Of a DNA stretch of 64,000 nt, positions 37,236 to 50,530 are shown piece by piece (position 1 is the first letter of the stretch; each line of letters begins with the position of its first letter). Under the pieces are notes generated by a model, which saw nothing but the letters and a program-made list of their open reading frames with translations, ran no database searches and was not told the DNA's origin. Made by a program: the position numbers and the translations under genes. This DNA comes from Halobacterium sp. CBA1132 (GTDB lineage: Archaea; Halobacteriota; Halobacteria; Halobacteriales; Halobacteriaceae): the NCBI RefSeq assembly GCF_001485535.1, contig NZ_BCMZ01000002.1:186001-250000 (forward strand). Reading direction: 5' to 3'.

Positions 37236-37527
37236 AGCTGATGTTGGCTGTCTCAACTACAACCCCAGCCAATTCCGATTGATTTGCACACCTACCAACC
37301 AGTCGTTTCACTGGGAACCGTATCTGATTAATAGGGATTCAATAGAGCTGCGTCGACGGGCGGGGCTTTGATGTCTGTGTCGTCGACGATCAGCTCGTAC
37401 ACCGTTCGGGCAAGACGAAGGCGACGTCGTCCGGGCTGAACTCGAAGCCCAGATCGAACGCCTGGGGGACGATCAGTTCGCCACGTTCGCGAACGAGGCC
37501 CTGGTCGAACTCGAGGAGCGGTACGGA

Positions 37528-37740
37528 GTGACCACGCCGATCGAGGCCCGCGTTCAGGAACTGACGAATAGGTACTACCGGGGGCTCGAAGTCCTCCAGG
37601 CACTCGATGAACCGATGACCGTCGACGAACTGGCCGCGGAACTGGAGCTGGATGACGAGGAGGTTCACGACCGGATCGCGTATCTCTCAACGTTCGACCG
37701 GGTCCGTCGGGATGGCGACACAGTCCGTCCCGTGGAGTAG
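37528..37740 (+). CDS. Small winged-helix-like protein, possibly a truncated gene
   Basis: Seventy residues from a GTG, with a C-terminal half that reads like a winged helix (MTVDELAAELELDDEEVHDRIAYL). Coding-like sequence in the same frame continues upstream to about 37400 (ELEAQIERLGDDQFATF) but no start codon is found before a TGA at 37369. It may therefore be the 3' part of a longer broken gene. It is convergent with the SWIM gene. Confidence 0.45.
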   Translation: MTTPIEARVQELTNRYYRGLEVLQALDEPMTVDELAAELELDDEEVHDRIAYLSTFDRVRRDGDTVRPVE

Positions 37741-37751
37741 TCTGGCCACGA

Positions 37752-38570
37752 CTACGGGGAGGGAAGGCGGCCGTCTGGTCGGGGAACGCGGCCCCGTTTG
37801 ATCTCGTGATCGACGCGGCGCAGGTGCTTGCAGCCGCCTTCGGGTGAACGTTGCTGCCAGTCGGGACAGGTACACGATTCGTCGATGACGTCGACTTCGT
37901 ACCGGTTCCCGGACGCAGACTGTACCTCGTAGCGGCCACCTTTCGAGAGAAGTGAGACGTCCATCGCTTCGGCAACGGCACGCTTCGTGCGGGGCTCAAG
38001 GTCGTCCTCCGACTGTGCGTTCTCGTCGACGACCAGTCGGTCGCGAACGTCGCCCGTTCGGCCACCGTCGGGAGCGACGGCTTCCGCAGGCCCCCTGAGC
38101 CGCTCGTGGAGCACTTCCTCCACCGGATGGCCTTCCGACCACAGGTAGTGGACCTCGCGGCGCTCACGATGGTCGTAGGAGCCGCACGCGGCTGCGCACC
38201 CAGTCCAGACGCGCCAGGCACCCAGCGCAGCCATCACGTCGACGATGTCACGGGGAACTGTCTGGTGGTCGTCCGGGAAGAACACCCGGAAGCGGGTACA
38301 CGCTTCCTGCGGCGGGACGGTCACCCACCAGTCTTCGCTGGAGCTCCAGCTGTCGTACATCGCCTCGTCGCTCCCGTAGCCGACTGTCACGCCATCGATC
38401 GGCGTCCAGTCTGCTGGGAGGTGGTCCGCCTCGCCTTCGAGGACCCGGAGGACGGCGTATCGGAGGTACCCCTGGGCTTGGTTGTCTGTCGTTCGAGCGA
38501 CCTGATCGTGCTGCTCGGCGACGTGCTCGGCTTCCTCGAGGACCGTCGTGAGATAGGGTTCAGTCATCAT
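37752..38570 (-). CDS. SWIM zinc-finger protein
   Basis: Protein of 272 residues with a C-terminal SWIM motif: CTCPDW, then CKHL about 10 residues on (CxCx(n)CxH), near residue 245. The rest is acidic, without a recognised catalytic domain. SWIM proteins in haloarchaea often sit on plasmids and integrated elements. The double ATG at 38570/38567 was chosen; a TTG at 38627 would lie inside the inverted repeat. The third copy of the long inverted repeat begins 50 bp upstream of this start, so expression is probably controlled from it. Confidence 0.75.
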   Translation of the reverse strand: MMTEPYLTTVLEEAEHVAEQHDQVARTTDNQAQGYLRYAVLRVLEGEADHLPADWTPIDGVTVGYGSDEAMYDSWSSSEDWWVTVPPQEACTRFRVFFPDDHQTVPRDIVDVMAALGAWRVWTGCAAACGSYDHRERREVHYLWSEGHPVEEVLHERLRGPAEAVAPDGGRTGDVRDRLVVDENAQSEDDLEPRTKRAVAEAMDVSLLSKGGRYEVQSASGNRYEVDVIDESCTCPDWQQRSPEGGCKHLRRVDHEIKRGRVPRPDGRLPSP

Positions 38571-38619
38571 TCGACGGAGGTCAGAACGCGCCTCCGCCCC
38601 TCCGCGGGCGCTGAAAAAC

Positions 38620-38661
38620 TTAACCAACAGAGCGGAAGGAATCCATCACTCTGTTGGTTAA
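38620..38661. repeat. Long inverted repeat, copy 3 of 3 (TTAACCAAC family)
   Basis: TTAACCAACAGAG (38620-38632) and CTCTGTTGGTTAA (38649-38661), exact 13-bp arms with 16 bp between. The 9-bp core arms are 24 bp apart, close to the 23 and 22 bp of the other two copies. It separates the SWIM gene from the end of the ArdC-like fragment, whose TAA stop is part of the right arm. Confidence 0.78.
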
Positions 38662-38945
38662 CTAGATTGGGACAAAGATTCGCTTTCGAGCACGTCGATG
38701 AGCTCTTCTGCTGTGGAACTGATCCGTCCGAGCCGCTCGCGAACGACCTCGGGGTTATCCGACTCCCACGCAGCGAGGTAGAACGCCGACCCGCTGGTGT
38801 CCAACTCACAGTACCGCCCGACGACGTACGCGACGGCTTCGGCCTCGACCAACCAGACTTGAGAAATTGAATATAGAACCCGGTTCCCACAACAAATTTC
38901 GGCTTTGAAGGAGGTTATGGCAGCGACGCCGAATTCCTGCGGCAA
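38658..38945 (-). pseudogene. C-terminal fragment of an ArdC-like antirestriction protein
   Basis: The last 65 residues (VEAEAVAYVVGRY, LDTSGSAFYLAAW, ERLGRISSTAEELID) match the C-terminal part of haloarchaeal ArdC-like ssDNA-binding proteins, which follows the zinc metallopeptidase-like core. The first 30 residues of this frame are unrelated and the catalytic core is missing, so only a tail remains. ArdC genes belong to plasmids and conjugative elements; the fragment fits a degraded element here. Confidence 0.6.
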
Positions 38946-38955
38946 CCAGTGTCAG

Positions 38956-39267
38956 CTACACGTCACCTTCATCTAGTTTTTTCGCCACCGAGATATCCCG
39001 CAGCCGGAGGTACGCCTTCGTATTATCGACTCCCAAAAGATCACGAACCTCAACAGGAATTACCGCGACGCCATCCTCGCTGATGCGAACGACGCCAGCT
39101 GATTCGGTTCGGTTAGGAGTGTGACCCTTGGTTTTTTCAGCAACCTCGACTTCGGGAAGGCGAATTAATGCCTCCTGATTCTTGATTCCGAGGACTTCCC
39201 GCACCTCGACGGGGATAACTACGGCACCGGAGTTGCTCAAGGTGACGATGCCAGCATCTTCTCCCAT
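38956..39267 (-). CDS. Tandem AbrB/SpoVT-like DNA-binding protein
   Basis: Protein of 103 residues made of two similar halves: GIVTLSNSGAVVIPVEVREVLGI (residues about 6-28) and GVVRISEDGVAVIPVEVRDLLGV (about 58-80). Each is a swapped-hairpin AbrB-type unit, so one chain can form the fold that usually needs a dimer. Such proteins act as antitoxins or regulators; no toxin gene is adjacent. A genuine start at 39267 and a normal stop suggest it is intact. Confidence 0.7.
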   Translation of the reverse strand: MGEDAGIVTLSNSGAVVIPVEVREVLGIKNQEALIRLPEVEVAEKTKGHTPNRTESAGVVRISEDGVAVIPVEVRDLLGVDNTKAYLRLRDISVAKKLDEGDV

Positions 39268-39621: not shown

Positions 39622-40038
39622 ATGACACATAACGATCAAAACAGTAAATTGAGCGAGCGGATAGATATAAAAATAACTCCCGAGATGAAAAACCGGGCCA
39701 AACGTGCTGCCGAAGACGATGAGTACAGCGGTCAGTCAACGTACCTTAGAGCGATGATTCATGTAGGGGAATCACGGATTGCCGACCTTGACCCTCGGTC
39801 CGGGGAGGGGCAGTCGAATCTTGAGGAAGTAGAGACAGTCGAGGCTGCTGCGAAAGCACTCAATGACAAAGTCATCCTCAACGAACTTTCACAAGAGAAG
39901 CAAGAGTTTGACGCAGTTGTCGAACAGCTCACCCTAGAGTTTGAGAACGTTCTCGCTGACCGGCTCCATGAAATGGCAAATAATGACCAGTCAGCGGTTG
40001 AGACTGATGGGCGCGGGAATTACTACTTGAGTCGGTGA
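39622..40038 (+). CDS. Ribbon-helix-helix-like accessory protein of integrase
   Basis: Protein of 138 residues. The N-terminal part SERIDIKITPEMKNRAKRAA followed by STYLRAMIHVGE has the strand-helix-helix pattern of MetJ/Arc-type DNA binders; the remainder is helical (about 75-125). It overlaps the integrase gene by up to 4 bp if the integrase begins at GTG 40035. It probably acts as a directionality factor or regulator of the integrase; this is inferred from order and size only. Confidence 0.6.
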   Translation: MTHNDQNSKLSERIDIKITPEMKNRAKRAAEDDEYSGQSTYLRAMIHVGESRIADLDPRSGEGQSNLEEVETVEAAAKALNDKVILNELSQEKQEFDAVVEQLTLEFENVLADRLHEMANNDQSAVETDGRGNYYLSR

Positions 40039-40040
40039 CC

Positions 40041-41165
40041 ATGTCCGTTACTACTGACGAGGCAAACCCAGACGGGAGTGTCCTCTGGTACTGGTACGAT
40101 AACTACCACGATAATGGTAAGGAGTCAACAAGGAAAACTAGTCGTGATGCAATCAAGCGATTCGAGAGATGGCTTGCCACTGAAGGAGAGTACAAACACG
40201 AGTGTCACTGGTCAGATATTGATCTTGAGAACGTCTCATCGGGCAAGATGATAAATCCCCGGGAGGTTACCGAGGATGAAGCAGAGGCGTTCCTGCACGA
40301 CCTCCAAGCACAGTTTTCTCCGGATACCCAACAGACGACGGCAGCATTTCTTAGTCAAGCTTATGCTTGGTGCCGCCGGGAGACGGAACCTGTTAAGGAC
40401 GACCCGTTCGGATACGTTCTGAATACTCTGAACAAGAACATTTTGGACAGTCCAAGCGGTCGTGATGCCTATATCATTCCTATCGAAGATGCACGGATCT
40501 ACATCCGGTCGTGGGGGCATCCAAAATGGACAACAATCAACCTGCTACTGGCGAAGCTGAGCCGGCGAGCAGGCGGCATTAGTAACCTCGATATTGAGGA
40601 TGTCAACCTCGATCATCCTGGATGCGACTGGACACCGCATCCAGACGTGCGTCATTGGGACGACCACATCCTCTTTCGTGCCGACAAGAAAGCAAGGGAG
40701 GAGGGGCGGAAATCTGGGAATAAGACAGCAACAACGGCAAAATATCCGCTAGATCGTGAACTTCGGGATGCACTCATCTGGTATCTCGCCATCAGGCCAG
40801 ATCCGGAGTCACCAGATGAACCGTTGTTTCTTGACACCTTCTATACGCGACTGAGTGCGGCGGGGATTAGCGATATGATACGAAGGAAGTCGAAGACGCT
40901 CACCGAGATGGACGATGACGAGTGCCAATTGACCTGCTGGTACGGACCCCATGACGACGACAATATCAATCCACATTATTGGCGACATTGGGCTACGACT
41001 TGGTATCAAGACCAGCTAGAGTCAGAGTCATTGACGGACTATATGCGTGGGGATACAGGTGGGGGCAGCAGGGCAATCTACGACCAATACACCGCCACGA
41101 AAAAACGCAAGATCCTCAAGGCGATGCCGACATTCCTTGAGTCGTACGCCGAGAAAAAAGAATAG
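40041..41165 (+). CDS. Tyrosine-family site-specific integrase
   Basis: Recombinase of 374 residues with an N-terminal SAM-like core-binding part (about 15-115) and a catalytic domain. Catalytic residues: Arg176 in KLSRRAGGI, a basic beta-hairpin near Lys228, HxxR at 312-315 (HYWRHW) and the nucleophile Tyr350 or Tyr347 in AIYDQYT. It would integrate or excise a genetic element. The DNA is AT-rich against the window. The start is ATG 40041; GTG 40035 would overlap the upstream stop as GTGA. No tRNA target gene is visible next to it. Confidence 0.8.
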   Translation: MSVTTDEANPDGSVLWYWYDNYHDNGKESTRKTSRDAIKRFERWLATEGEYKHECHWSDIDLENVSSGKMINPREVTEDEAEAFLHDLQAQFSPDTQQTTAAFLSQAYAWCRRETEPVKDDPFGYVLNTLNKNILDSPSGRDAYIIPIEDARIYIRSWGHPKWTTINLLLAKLSRRAGGISNLDIEDVNLDHPGCDWTPHPDVRHWDDHILFRADKKAREEGRKSGNKTATTAKYPLDRELRDALIWYLAIRPDPESPDEPLFLDTFYTRLSAAGISDMIRRKSKTLTEMDDDECQLTCWYGPHDDDNINPHYWRHWATTWYQDQLESESLTDYMRGDTGGGSRAIYDQYTATKKRKILKAMPTFLESYAEKKE

Positions 41166-41847: not shown

Positions 41848-41873
41848 TTGTGACCCAGATATAAAAGTCACAA
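41848..41873 (+). promoter_or_regulatory. TATA box flanked by a perfect inverted repeat (putative repressor site)
   Basis: TTGTGAC (41848-41854) and GTCACAA (41867-41873) are exact reverse complements 12 bp apart and bracket the TATA element GATATAAAAG (41858-41867). A dimeric protein bound here would block the TATA-binding protein. Transcription would begin near 41889, just before the folded leader. This is a well-formed regulated promoter for the four-gene operon. Confidence 0.65.
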
Positions 41874-41891
41874 TGGCTCGTCCACTGGACT

Positions 41892-41943
41892 AGCACGATT
41901 CTGGGGAACTCCCCCGGCGCAGGGACGCCGGAGGAATCGTGCT
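41892..41943 (+). promoter_or_regulatory. Structured RNA leader: three-stem fold ahead of the operon
   Basis: AGCACGATTC (41892-41901) pairs perfectly with GAATCGTGCT (41934-41943). Inside lie two hairpins: GGGG/CCCC with a loop AACT (41903-41914) and CCGGCG/CGCCGG with a 6-nt loop (41914-41931, one shared C). The predicted start near 41889 means the transcript opens with this fold, 9 nt before the ATG at 41953. Leaders are rare in haloarchaea, so a control role is plausible. An insertion-element end is the main alternative. Confidence 0.55.
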
Positions 41944-41952
41944 GCCACAGCA

Positions 41953-42240
41953 ATGACAGCAAGCAACAATATCAGAGTCAGGAGTCATAACTCTGTCTCT
42001 CAGAGCGAGACTCCGGCAACTGGTCCACTGACTAACCGAGTCGTACAGTTCACCCAATTACGTGATGAAGAGAGTAGCAGAACCAACGCCGATACCAAAG
42101 TTGCTCAGCTCCGTGAACTAACCACGGAGTCACAGATGTGGCGACGGTATTGGCCTGACAATTACCTCGTCGACGAGGATGTTTCGTTGGGAACGCGACA
42201 GACGCATCGAAAGGTGCTCCTGATAACGGAGGCGATCTGA
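41953..42240 (+). CDS. Operon gene A: small protein of unknown function
   Basis: Protein of 95 residues with no motif I recognise. It is polar, with a run rich in Ser, Thr and Asn at the N-terminus and a conserved-looking MWRRYWPDNYLVDED near residue 62. The ATG is 9 nt after the folded leader and the TGA is followed directly by the ATG of gene B (TGAATG), so the two are coupled. It could be a regulator or an antitoxin-like partner of the nuclease at the end of the operon, but nothing in the sequence shows this. Confidence 0.65.
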   Translation: MTASNNIRVRSHNSVSQSETPATGPLTNRVVQFTQLRDEESSRTNADTKVAQLRELTTESQMWRRYWPDNYLVDEDVSLGTRQTHRKVLLITEAI

Positions 42241-42624
42241 ATGACAGCTTCGACGGATGAGACGGCATCACTTGCCATCCCAATGAATCCCGACGTCGCG
42301 TTCGAGGCACTCGGAAATAGTCGCCGTCGCCGCGTCGTGTTGTCGCTGTCACGTACTCACGGTGAGCTCACCGCCAACGAGCTCGCAGCCGAAATCGCAG
42401 CTATCGAAAACGCGATCGACCCCAGCAAAGTCGGCAGTGACGAGCGCACGTCCGTCTACATCACGCTCACCCAATCGCATCTTGAGACACTCGATGAGTG
42501 CGGTGCTGTCGACTATGATGACCGATCTAAGACCGTTACTGCAACGGATGCGACCGAACCGCTCGCCGAATACATCCGTCGGCTGCAGACGGCGTGCTAC
42601 AAGCCAGATACGGGAGATATCTGA
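42241..42624 (+). CDS. Operon gene B: winged-helix protein, DUF7344-like
   Basis: Protein of 127 residues with a DUF7344-like winged helix: AFEALGNSRRRRVVLSLSR, then TANELAAEIAAIE, TLTQSHLETLDECGAVDYD and TVTATD as the wing. Proteins like this are typical haloarchaeal DNA-binding regulators. It is the best candidate to bind the repeat around the operon TATA box. Its TGA overlaps the ATG of gene C by one base (TGATG). Confidence 0.72.
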   Translation: MTASTDETASLAIPMNPDVAFEALGNSRRRRVVLSLSRTHGELTANELAAEIAAIENAIDPSKVGSDERTSVYITLTQSHLETLDECGAVDYDDRSKTVTATDATEPLAEYIRRLQTACYKPDTGDI

Positions 42625-43313
42625 TGACGGACAGCCAACAGCGCGCACTTGCGACGCTTCGAGACATCGATGTCAGCTTCCACCGATTGTTTGAGGCGGT
42701 CGATGAGGACGAAGCGACTGCTTTGACACCGGCAGAAGATCCAATCGCTACGCTGCGGCGAGCGCGGTCACAGATTGACTCCGCGCTATTCGAACACCAG
42801 CGCCGAACAGCCGACGGGACACTCTCTGACGGGGGAACGTGTGTCCTCCAGTGGAACCCGTCCGGTACACCACCCCGACGGCTCGTCCTCGATCCCAAAG
42901 ACGGCGACACTTGGACTCGCCGTGAACTCGAATGGACAGGAGACGGCTGGCGTGTCTGTAGTTGTGACACCGTCGACGACGTTGCGATACGCGCCCCGGC
43001 GGAACCACGCTACCCGAATCCCGTGGACCCGCCGACGATCAACACGCTGCTCGAGTGGATTCGAGGCAGCTGGACGAATCCGGATCCAGACGTACTCGTC
43101 TTCGATGCAACGGCAACCACCGAACAGGGCGTCCTCGTAGCTGTCGACGGTGAACTCCGCTACCGAGAAGTCGACAGTCACCGATGGGTCACCGTCACCG
43201 ACGAAAACGAACTCTACCACCATCTCCAACAGCAAGGCCAACCCACGCTCACGTCGCTTGCAGAGACGCCGCTGACGCGACAGCACTTCACTCCAAGCCC
43301 ACTCACACGATGA
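42624..43313 (+). CDS. Operon gene C: unknown acidic protein
   Basis: Protein of 229 residues not matching a family I know. An N-terminal helical part (residues 1-60) is followed by two beta-rich stretches of similar length: VLQWNPSGTPPRRLVLDPKDGDTW (about 75-98) and DPDVLVFDATATTEQGVLVAVDGELRY (about 155-181). The latter looks like a small beta-sandwich. Its stop overlaps the start of gene D by 4 bp (ATGA). A role with the nuclease as specificity or sensing subunit is inferred only from gene order. Confidence 0.65.
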   Translation: MTDSQQRALATLRDIDVSFHRLFEAVDEDEATALTPAEDPIATLRRARSQIDSALFEHQRRTADGTLSDGGTCVLQWNPSGTPPRRLVLDPKDGDTWTRRELEWTGDGWRVCSCDTVDDVAIRAPAEPRYPNPVDPPTINTLLEWIRGSWTNPDPDVLVFDATATTEQGVLVAVDGELRYREVDSHRWVTVTDENELYHHLQQQGQPTLTSLAETPLTRQHFTPSPLTR

Positions 43314-44359
43314 CATCGGATGAATCCCCACTCCCAGACGAGTACGACGAACACCTGCGCGGGCTCACGGAAGCGATCGAGTCCGTTCGTGACACCCTCA
43401 AGACCGACCATACGCTCACCACTGACCAGCAGATGTTCGCCCGCCGACTCCTGTACTTAGCGAACGAGCCAATCAAGGAGGCCAAATCTCTCCTCCCCGA
43501 GCCCAACCAAGCTGATGCAGCGACGGACGAACGGTCCTCGAGTTCGGCAAGCGACTACATGGAGTTGGTCACCCAGATCGAACAGGAGTTGTGCTGGCTG
43601 ATTCGATCACTGCAAGCAACGCAACCCGCAGCCCATCACTACGACGAACCACCCGCTGAGAAGTTCACAACAGCCCTTGAGTACGCTACCGCACTCAGAG
43701 ACATCCTCCCATCAGTCCCAGAAGACAGCCCAGTACTTGCCGACCAAGCGGACCTCAGTCTCAAGGAGGTCGACCCACACGTTGGCGGGCGTGGTGATAG
43801 TGACGGCCGGTGGCTCGAGTACCAACTAGAGCGAGCACTAGGACGGTGGGGATACCGTGCAGATACCCGCCAACACCTCTTCAGCCTCGAGGTCGACATC
43901 GTCGCCACGCGGAGGGAGAAACAACAGGAGCCAAGCGACTGGATCGTCGCCCAATGTAAGGACTGGACGAGCGATCCGATCACGCCAGCAGTCCTCTTCC
44001 GGTTGTGTACCGTGGCGTTCGCGTGCCGAGCGATGCCAGTGCTCTGCCACACAACCGAGCTAACGCCGCGAGCCGAACAACTCGCCCGTGAATTCGAAGT
44101 GCGAGTCCTGGATTTAACGGATCTCGAACGTGCTGAGTTGCCTACCCCACAGGTTGCCAGGCCAACGGCAGAATTCCGGGAATGGCAGCCACAGTACCGC
44201 GCTCGAGACGACCGAGGTTCAATCCCGTGGATGTTCTACAACGAACCAGGGAAACGATTCAGCTACGTCCCAGGATTCACCCTCGTGGGCAAAGACGCTG
44301 ACTATGAACCGATTGAGAGTGATCGGGATGACGATACGCATCCCGCTGCCGGTCATTAA
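43310..44359 (+). CDS. Operon gene D: Mrr-like restriction-endonuclease-fold protein
   Basis: Protein of 349 residues. The middle part (about 155-275) has the Mrr-type PD-(D/E)XK layout: WLEYQLERALGRWGY, then VDIVATR with the metal-binding Asp, and VAQCKDW with the QxK pair, followed by a helix and VLCHTTELTPRAEQLA, a common closing element of this fold. The N-terminal 150 residues are helical and may be a sensing or dimerising part. Active residues look intact. Mrr-like nucleases cleave modified or foreign DNA, so the operon may be a defence module. It is the last gene, 4 bp overlapping gene C. Confidence 0.75.
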   Translation: MTSDESPLPDEYDEHLRGLTEAIESVRDTLKTDHTLTTDQQMFARRLLYLANEPIKEAKSLLPEPNQADAATDERSSSSASDYMELVTQIEQELCWLIRSLQATQPAAHHYDEPPAEKFTTALEYATALRDILPSVPEDSPVLADQADLSLKEVDPHVGGRGDSDGRWLEYQLERALGRWGYRADTRQHLFSLEVDIVATRREKQQEPSDWIVAQCKDWTSDPITPAVLFRLCTVAFACRAMPVLCHTTELTPRAEQLAREFEVRVLDLTDLERAELPTPQVARPTAEFREWQPQYRARDDRGSIPWMFYNEPGKRFSYVPGFTLVGKDADYEPIESDRDDDTHPAAGH

Positions 44360-49969: not shown

Positions 49970-50530
49970 TTACTCAAGCAAGCCGAGTTCGGTGAGTCGG
50001 TCTTTGACGTGTGCCAGCGCGTGCTGGGCGTCCTCAGATTCATTTGCGCCAGTAATCACGAGTTTCCCACTGCCAAACAAGAGAACGACGACATCGGGTT
50101 CATCGAGTCGATAAACGAGGCCGGGGAACTGTTCGGGCTCGTACTCGATTTGCTCTAGGCCGAGCCCGATTGCGATTGCATTCAGGTTTAGCGATTGCCC
50201 AAGATTGGCACTGGAAACGATATTCTGCACCTCAATTTTGGGATCATCCACGACATCGATGCCTAACTCGCGCAAGTCCTCAAAGACGATTTCGAGAGCC
50301 GCATGGACGTCATCAACGCTATTCGCGCCGGTACAGACCACCTTTCCTGAATGGAAAATGAGTGTGGCCGACTTCGGTTCGTCGAGACGGTAGACAACCC
50401 CAGGGAAGTCGTCGGGATTGTACTCTGCTCCCGGAAGGTCTGTTGCGAGTTGCTCAAGCGCGAGTTCTTGACCGATATCACTGGATGCAACCACGTTTTC
50501 GATTTGAATTGTGTCCGTTACAGCGCTCAT
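49970..50530 (-). CDS. tbp: TATA-box-binding protein
   Basis: General transcription factor of 186 residues with the two direct repeats of the TBP saddle: IQIENVVASSDIGQELAL to VVCTGANS and IEVQNIVSSANLGQSLNL to LVITGANE. Each repeat has the phenylalanine-proline element (DFPGVVYR, QFPGLVYR) used to bend DNA. The second repeat is conventional; the first and the C-terminal helix differ more from the common haloarchaeal TbpE I remember. Haloarchaea often carry several TBP paralogues, so this may be an extra copy with its own promoter set. Confidence 0.93.
   Translation of the reverse strand: MSAVTDTIQIENVVASSDIGQELALEQLATDLPGAEYNPDDFPGVVYRLDEPKSATLIFHSGKVVCTGANSVDDVHAALEIVFEDLRELGIDVVDDPKIEVQNIVSSANLGQSLNLNAIAIGLGLEQIEYEPEQFPGLVYRLDEPDVVVLLFGSGKLVITGANESEDAQHALAHVKDRLTELGLLE

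Follow-up and report, generated by a model that had tools for sequence, protein, structure and literature searches.

A four-gene operon that ends in a gene for an Mrr-like nuclease raises the question of whether its genes, A to D, form one self-contained defence module or whether the nuclease is one cargo of a more widespread control unit. The operon lies in a stretch of 64,000 nucleotides from Halobacterium sp. CBA1132, hereafter the window, which corresponds to positions 186001–250000 of a 282,772-base replicon. A first-pass annotation had proposed the former. All evidence considered here is computational, and the coordinates of the features are collected in Table 1.

Several elements of that proposal are plainly present. 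The genes are joined as claimed, by TGAATG between A and B, TGATG between B and C, and ATGA between C and D (sequence and ORF coordinates), and a perfect repeat does surround the TATA box. The leader is also folded: segment 41882–41960 has a folding energy of −34.6 kcal/mol and is more stable than shuffled sequences (z −2.96), as is the complete element listed in Table 1 (z −2.72). The operator-like repeat is not a chance occurrence: among 28 homologous loci, 17 have it at an unchanged distance from A (−105) with 6–7 of its 7 positions matching. An integrase had been placed nearby. The ORF is there, but its family assignment is weak, with Phage_int_SAM_4 just under the cut-off and a weak match to XerA (Pfam and NCBIfam). 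Integrases that are unrelated or distantly related to this one lie near several other copies of the cassette.

Table 1 Features of the operon and its surroundings (window coordinates)
Feature	Position	Strand	Description	Evidence
Probable tyrosine recombinase	40035..41165	+	Upstream of the operon	Weak Pfam/NCBIfam matches
Operator-like inverted repeat TTGTGAC-N12-GTCACAA	41848..41873	+	Brackets the TATA box; arms TTGTGAC 41848–41854 and GTCACAA 41867–41873, TATAAAA 41860–41866 between them	Sequence and conservation
Structured leader RNA element (models R1/R2)	41889..42033	+	5' leader and about 25 first codons of A	Alignments, covariation, fold z-scores, genome searches
Helix P1 with enclosed hairpin P2	41893..41942	+	P1 41893–41902/41933–41942; P2 41914–41919/41926–41931	
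Putative alternative helix P3	41940..41961	+	41940–41944 UGCUG/41957–41961 CAGCA	
Gene A, 95 aa	41953..42240	+	Leader ORF; TGAATG coupling to B	Codon statistics and comparison
Helix set P4	41975..42026	+	Within codons 8–25 of A; P4a 41975–41979/42022–42026, P4b 41981–41986/42009–42014, P4c 41991–41995/42001–42005	
Gene B, 127 aa	42241..42624	+	DUF7344 winged helix	Pfam PF24035
Gene C, 229 aa	42624..43313	+	No family; obligate partner of D	
Gene D, 349 aa	43310..44359	+	Mrr-like PD-(D/E)XK; helical N-terminal domain	Pfam PF04471
Gene E, 151 aa	44792..45247	+	MarR-like winged helix	Pfam MarR_2, E 1e-7

Relatives of the cassette were found at 27 loci in named haloarchaeal genomes. The cassette is mobile and mostly located on plasmids, which include pNRC100 and the H. 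salinarum R1 plasmids; the copy on pNRC100 of H. salinarum NRC-1, at about 123.8–126.3 kb, is intact. Most cassette loci keep the gene order A-B-C-D. In about half of the cassettes the MarR-like gene E follows, which makes the operon unit somewhat larger than first stated; E is a frequent, not a constant, downstream partner (cluster 3, in 15 loci). The source genome carries two more copies. One lies on the same replicon at about 77.2–79.6 kb (L062:7895–9647 being about 77.9–79.6 kb) and has D in two parts, with a 217-aa ORF of a transposase cluster between the halves on the opposite strand. The other (L061:12128–12974 plus L060:1–1619) spans position 1 of a circular contig of 120,973 bases. 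Elsewhere in the window, the region 37422–38850 has 92–97% identity to sequences in many haloarchaeal plasmids, where it is annotated as a DUF6036 nucleotidyltransferase and a DUF955/ArdC-like protein; a MazE-like protein (38956–39267) adjoins it, and the whole is possibly a widespread toxin–antitoxin or stability cassette. A plasmid-borne gene for a TATA-binding protein at 49970–50530 has relatives near the cassette in five loci.

The suggestion that the genes travel together holds firmly for C and D. Across the class (391 genomes searched), D comes directly after 33 of the 36 strong matches to C, and 33 of the 34 matches to D have C before them; a decayed copy and fragments at contig ends are among the exceptions. 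In the Natrialbaceae the C–D pair stands without the leader, A, and B, and is in part duplicated or split. In Natrialbaceae loci L049:5456–9050, L054, and L053, a short C and a separate protein resembling the N-terminus of D are followed by C, D, and a conserved coiled-coil protein. The assignment of D to the Mrr-like nucleases is upheld by a match to PF04471 (Mrr_cat) just above the gathering score (E 9e-5; 23.0 bits against a cut-off of 21). Mrr_cat is the only domain found in the Pfam search, with no Mrr_N, and the N-terminus is predicted, at low confidence, to be helical. Residues E170, E194, D196, Q215, and K217 do not vary among 26 aligned relatives. Of these, E194, D196, Q215, and K217 are the catalytic residues; the first-pass annotation had made its proposal depend on conservation of the catalytic Asp and Lys. 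The predicted model of D, of low pLDDT, has the alpha-beta-beta-beta-alpha-beta order expected of the fold.

C was correctly described as belonging to no known family, with zero matches in Pfam and NCBIfam. Its predicted model, of moderate confidence, comprises a helical N-terminus, a beta domain, and an alpha/beta domain; a structure search returned nothing below E 0.001 and TM values below 0.25, which we took as no match. Searched against the sequences of solved structures, B, C, and D gave coiled-coil or chance matches only. Against the PADLOC models, B matched Csa3 weakly, and A, C, and D all stayed without a match at E 1. Neither B nor D matched phage genomes, and D had no match among viral contigs. 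No methyltransferase recurs near the cassette in 37 loci, where a crude motif scan gave isolated candidates, and no defence genes recur around it. Given the invariant Mrr-type residues and the lack of a recurrent methyltransferase, it is plausible that C–D acts as a DNA-cleaving cassette in defence or plasmid competition. As its use, we tentatively favor interference with foreign DNA or competition between plasmids over a role in element maintenance, since C–D is mobile, carried on plasmids, and built around a probable nuclease. The earlier idea of a candidate new nuclease module is thus retained on the basis of C–D pairing, mobility, invariant catalytic residues, and the lack of a match to defence models.

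Upstream sequences of the cassettes align nearly gap-free, beginning where transcription is expected to start and continuing into A. The first base of the RNA element lies about 26 nucleotides past the TATA box, where transcription would be expected to start, and in both tiers of loci described below its placement with respect to TATA and AUG is consistent, judging by sequence, with a transcribed leader. Across 26 cassettes the nucleotide sequence is conserved, and helices P1, P2, and P4 are paired in 93% of cells. P1 pairing survives changes from A-U to G-C and from U-A to C-G or G-U, one pair of P2 changes from C-G to U-A in tier 2, and double-sided changes occur in all five pairs of P4a and five of the six pairs of P4b (alignment A4). 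A plain MAFFT alignment contains 13 double-changed cells versus 3.8 in shuffles; the count of pairs with double-sided changes in that alignment is less decisive (5 versus 3.0, with 52 of 500 shuffles reaching 5). In the 45-row alignment A4, which was fitted to the structure model and leans towards the model's own helices, double-sided changes affect 21 of 32 pairs and amount to 97 cells versus 29 in shuffled data, and sliding of the pairing partners abolishes the signal. Compensatory changes in a conserved secondary structure are found in both the MAFFT alignment and A4. RNAalifold, applied to alignment A2, favored another consensus, in which the 5' strand of P1 pairs with P4a and which has zero double changes. 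We set this consensus aside, keeping it as an alternative; the structure named here is preferred because more of its cells are paired, it has double-sided changes, and it generalizes to tier 2.

The putative helix P3 overlaps the 3' strand of P1, and its loop would contain the start codon of A. Its pairs are invariant in 26 of 26 cassettes, and covariation is therefore unable to test them. The best structures with P1 and with P3 differ by no more than about 4 kcal/mol (32 sequences, compared without a control), and these predicted energies fit a two-state switch. A search of Rfam with the leader gave chance matches and zero families above the gathering threshold, and we found the leader described nowhere in the open-access literature. 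Comparative analysis indicates that the leader and the first 25 or so codons of A are a conserved structured RNA, previously uncatalogued and absent from Rfam. As a regulatory RNA it would represent a novel family within a familiar kind, unusual in its placement.

Model searches recovered the leader RNA before A-B-C-D and, as a second tier, in many genera (E 1e-4 to 1e-12), giving 76 matches in 58 of the 391 genomes. Thirty matches (31 counting the copy across a record start), or about 40%, precede C–D; about 45 of the 76 lack it. The second model, R2, yielded matches that had played no part in its training; most of these, too, sit at an ATG with codons for MTA...SDNS and have A- or B-type genes behind them. 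The claim that the four genes make up one indivisible unit is not upheld, since the leader, A, and B stand mostly before other cargoes and C–D also occurs without them. The first-pass annotation had held that homologues of A, B, and C occurring mainly without D would speak against its proposal; this is the case for A and B and is not the case for C.

Besides C–D, three kinds of cargo follow the same front end in the loci inspected. At eleven loci (L098, L100, L103–L106, L110, L111, L116, L256, and L257) the cargo is an operon of proteins of about 295, 412, and 1180 aa, sometimes accompanied by a 177-aa protein and an HNH protein. The protein of about 1180 aa carries UvrD and PDDEXK_1 domains; among the NCBIfam models, AddA matches it best, at E 2e-16, a score well short of the cut-off. 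The operon at L103:3301–10958 and ten similar loci is an apparently undescribed AddA/RecB-like operon with two partners of no known family and often an HNH gene, behind the leader. Tyrosine recombinases adjoining tail-type genes form the cargo on provirus-like contigs (L101 and L108), and an HNH gene does so at L102. A longer pattern matched two IMG/VR contigs, with sizes equal to those behind L101 and L108. The promoters also differ between tiers: tier 1 has the TATA-spanning palindrome, and much of tier 2 has a promoter type read by eye as ATACAAATA-N-TTTTATA. By this comparison, the constant part across loci is the RNA, while promoters and cargoes vary, and the unit is better described as a common RNA–regulator front end plus a C–D nuclease cargo. 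Two incomplete copies were also seen. In one (L113:8395–8538, minus strand), the leader RNA is recognizable, the start codon of A is lost, C is truncated, and D is absent. The other, on contig 1 of the source genome (L115:3539–3676), is a partial leader whose similarity seems to end just past ATGACAGCA; it adjoins a convergent large gene and is perhaps a remnant or an element boundary.

Gene A had been taken for a protein of an unknown family. It indeed has no family match in Pfam, NCBIfam, or PADLOC, but its codon statistics look mainly like those of an RNA-bearing leader ORF. In the window's clade, identity by codon position is 0.82/0.77/0.78 over codons 1–32 of A and drifts to 0.60/0.57/0.49 in later codons, while genes B to D have the profile of normal coding constraint (0.83–0.85/0.85–0.91/0.56–0.57). 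Where the residue is the same, the codon is identical at a frequency of 0.82 in the leader-bearing codons of A versus 0.57–0.60 in B to D. Elsewhere A is an intact winged-helix-like protein (L052, L103, L101, and L108) or, in Halorubrum, a protein of 55 aa, and in the second tier this RNA runs into ORFs of 49–52 codons or directly into a DUF7344 gene. Because A may be a winged helix, a short ORF, or replaced by B, the common element is the RNA and not a protein. In the window's clade, A is not conserved as a protein and looks mainly like an RNA carrier; the window's A looks like a degraded remnant of a winged-helix gene.

B was rightly called a winged-helix protein: it matches DUF7344 (PF24035) with E 1.3e-22 and 80.4 bits, well above the gathering score of 27.8. 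A B-type gene stands behind most leader matches, and B is probably a regulator. We found nothing on DUF7344 in the open-access literature. The B gene of Salinibaculum litoreum (L034:6930–7310) is 98% identical to window positions 42241–42621, while A, C, and D are 55–78% identical, a pattern that suggests recombination of B alone.

These observations suggest a model, to which we assign a probability of roughly 0.6, in which the window contains one instance of a modular front end, consisting of the RNA and the A/B regulators and acting at the level of translation, joined to a nuclease cargo. Transcription would start about 26 nucleotides past the TATA box; since that box lies inside the palindromic operator, a regulator, probably B, could shut the promoter by binding there. 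The 5' end of the mRNA, a leader of about 64 nucleotides plus some 25 codons of A, is predicted by comparison to fold, and switching between P1 and P3 may open or close translation of A. The signal sensed could be a metabolite, an A/B-type protein, or a general cellular state. Gene A stays open and is linked to B, C, and D by a series of stop/start junctions; given these coupled junctions, initiation at A would set the output of the operon. A itself would matter here mainly as a carrier of the RNA, in keeping with its codon statistics. The effector is probably C–D, in which D would cut DNA with a D-(E/Q)xK center and C would assist or restrain D, most likely for killing, clearing of foreign DNA, or plasmid competition. 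At other loci this front end would drive different DNA-processing cargoes.

The original proposal, a self-contained restriction or abortive-infection module with a leader that merely provides tight control, accounts well for the coupled genes, the co-occurrence of C and D, the invariant nuclease motif, and the plasmid location. We nevertheless consider it rather unlikely, as the leader with A and B is more common without C–D than with it, C–D stands alone in the Natrialbaceae, A is not conserved as a protein in the window's clade, and no defence genes recur nearby. That same mutual independence weighs against a working role of the RNA in the effector, for instance as an antitoxin or guide that binds the nuclease. 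A conserved RNA directly before the nuclease in 30–31 cases would be expected from such a role, but the RNA also precedes an unrelated helicase–nuclease, HNH genes, and recombinases, C–D exists without it, and its overlap with the start codon at a fixed place resembles a cis-element. Because cargo and RNA occur apart in both directions, an RNA antitoxin or guide was rejected, and we regard this role as very unlikely.

Conservation might also reside in something other than RNA. An element acting as DNA, such as an operator, an att site, or a hairpin-forming origin, would explain the palindromes, the integrases close upstream in several loci, and the chromosomal copy (L115) that has the 5' half only. 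Yet the helices covary while the loops between them vary in length, the element starts at the expected transcript start though promoters differ between tiers, it overlaps the AUG at fixed spacing, and many copies have no integrase, all of which make this reading quite improbable. Still less do we favor selection on an N-terminal peptide, MTA...SDNSV, serving as a signal or nascent-chain element: M-T-A and S-x-N are indeed kept across very different proteins, but synonymous positions are unusually conserved and half of the element precedes the start codon, so that this explanation is very unlikely indeed.

It is tempting to speculate further that a new class of sensory leader RNAs, common to haloarchaeal plasmids, integrative elements, and proviruses, gates the translation of exchangeable cargoes that cut or recombine DNA by means of a single start-codon switch, with DUF7344 and winged-helix proteins as RNA- or DNA-binding partners. 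We offer this broader idea tentatively and think it possible rather than probable; if true, mobile-element warfare and excision would share one control circuit. The leader links otherwise unrelated mobile cargoes, namely the Mrr-like pair, the AddA-like helicase–nuclease, HNH proteins, and recombinases, and models R1 and R2 provide a sequence handle for further effector sets. The copy on pNRC100 makes the RNA and the nuclease pair directly testable in H. salinarum NRC-1.

Established regulatory RNAs are scarce in archaea, and leaderless transcripts are common among haloarchaeal mRNAs; a long leader with covarying helices that extends into coding sequence is therefore unusual. The element resembles cis-regulatory leader RNAs such as riboswitches and ribosomal-protein leaders in having a structured, putatively transcribed 5' leader at the promoter, a start codon in or beside a predicted helix, putative alternative pairings, and covariation across distant loci. 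It differs in reaching about 25 codons into the ORF, in preceding mobile nuclease or recombinase operons, and in having no Rfam match. An S15 leader has been described in Halobacteria (PMC7247131). Among the cargoes, D shares the Mrr_cat domain and catalytic residues of Mrr-type (type IV) restriction endonucleases and differs from them by its helical N-terminal domain, with no Mrr_N found, and its obligate partner C. Unlike type I–III restriction–modification systems, the cassette has no recurrent adjoining methyltransferase in the 37 loci of the crude scan. The alternative cargo protein of about 1180 aa, which is not the window's cargo, is AddA-like and recalls AddAB/RecBCD; neither of its partners, of about 295 and 412 aa, matches any family significantly (AddB at E 0.15), and an AddB-like role for them is conjectural. 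Like controller-gene (C protein) and toxin–antitoxin operons, the cassette places a probable winged-helix regulator before the effector and an operator-like repeat over its own promoter, and it differs from these systems in its RNA element and in the exchange of cargoes behind one front end.
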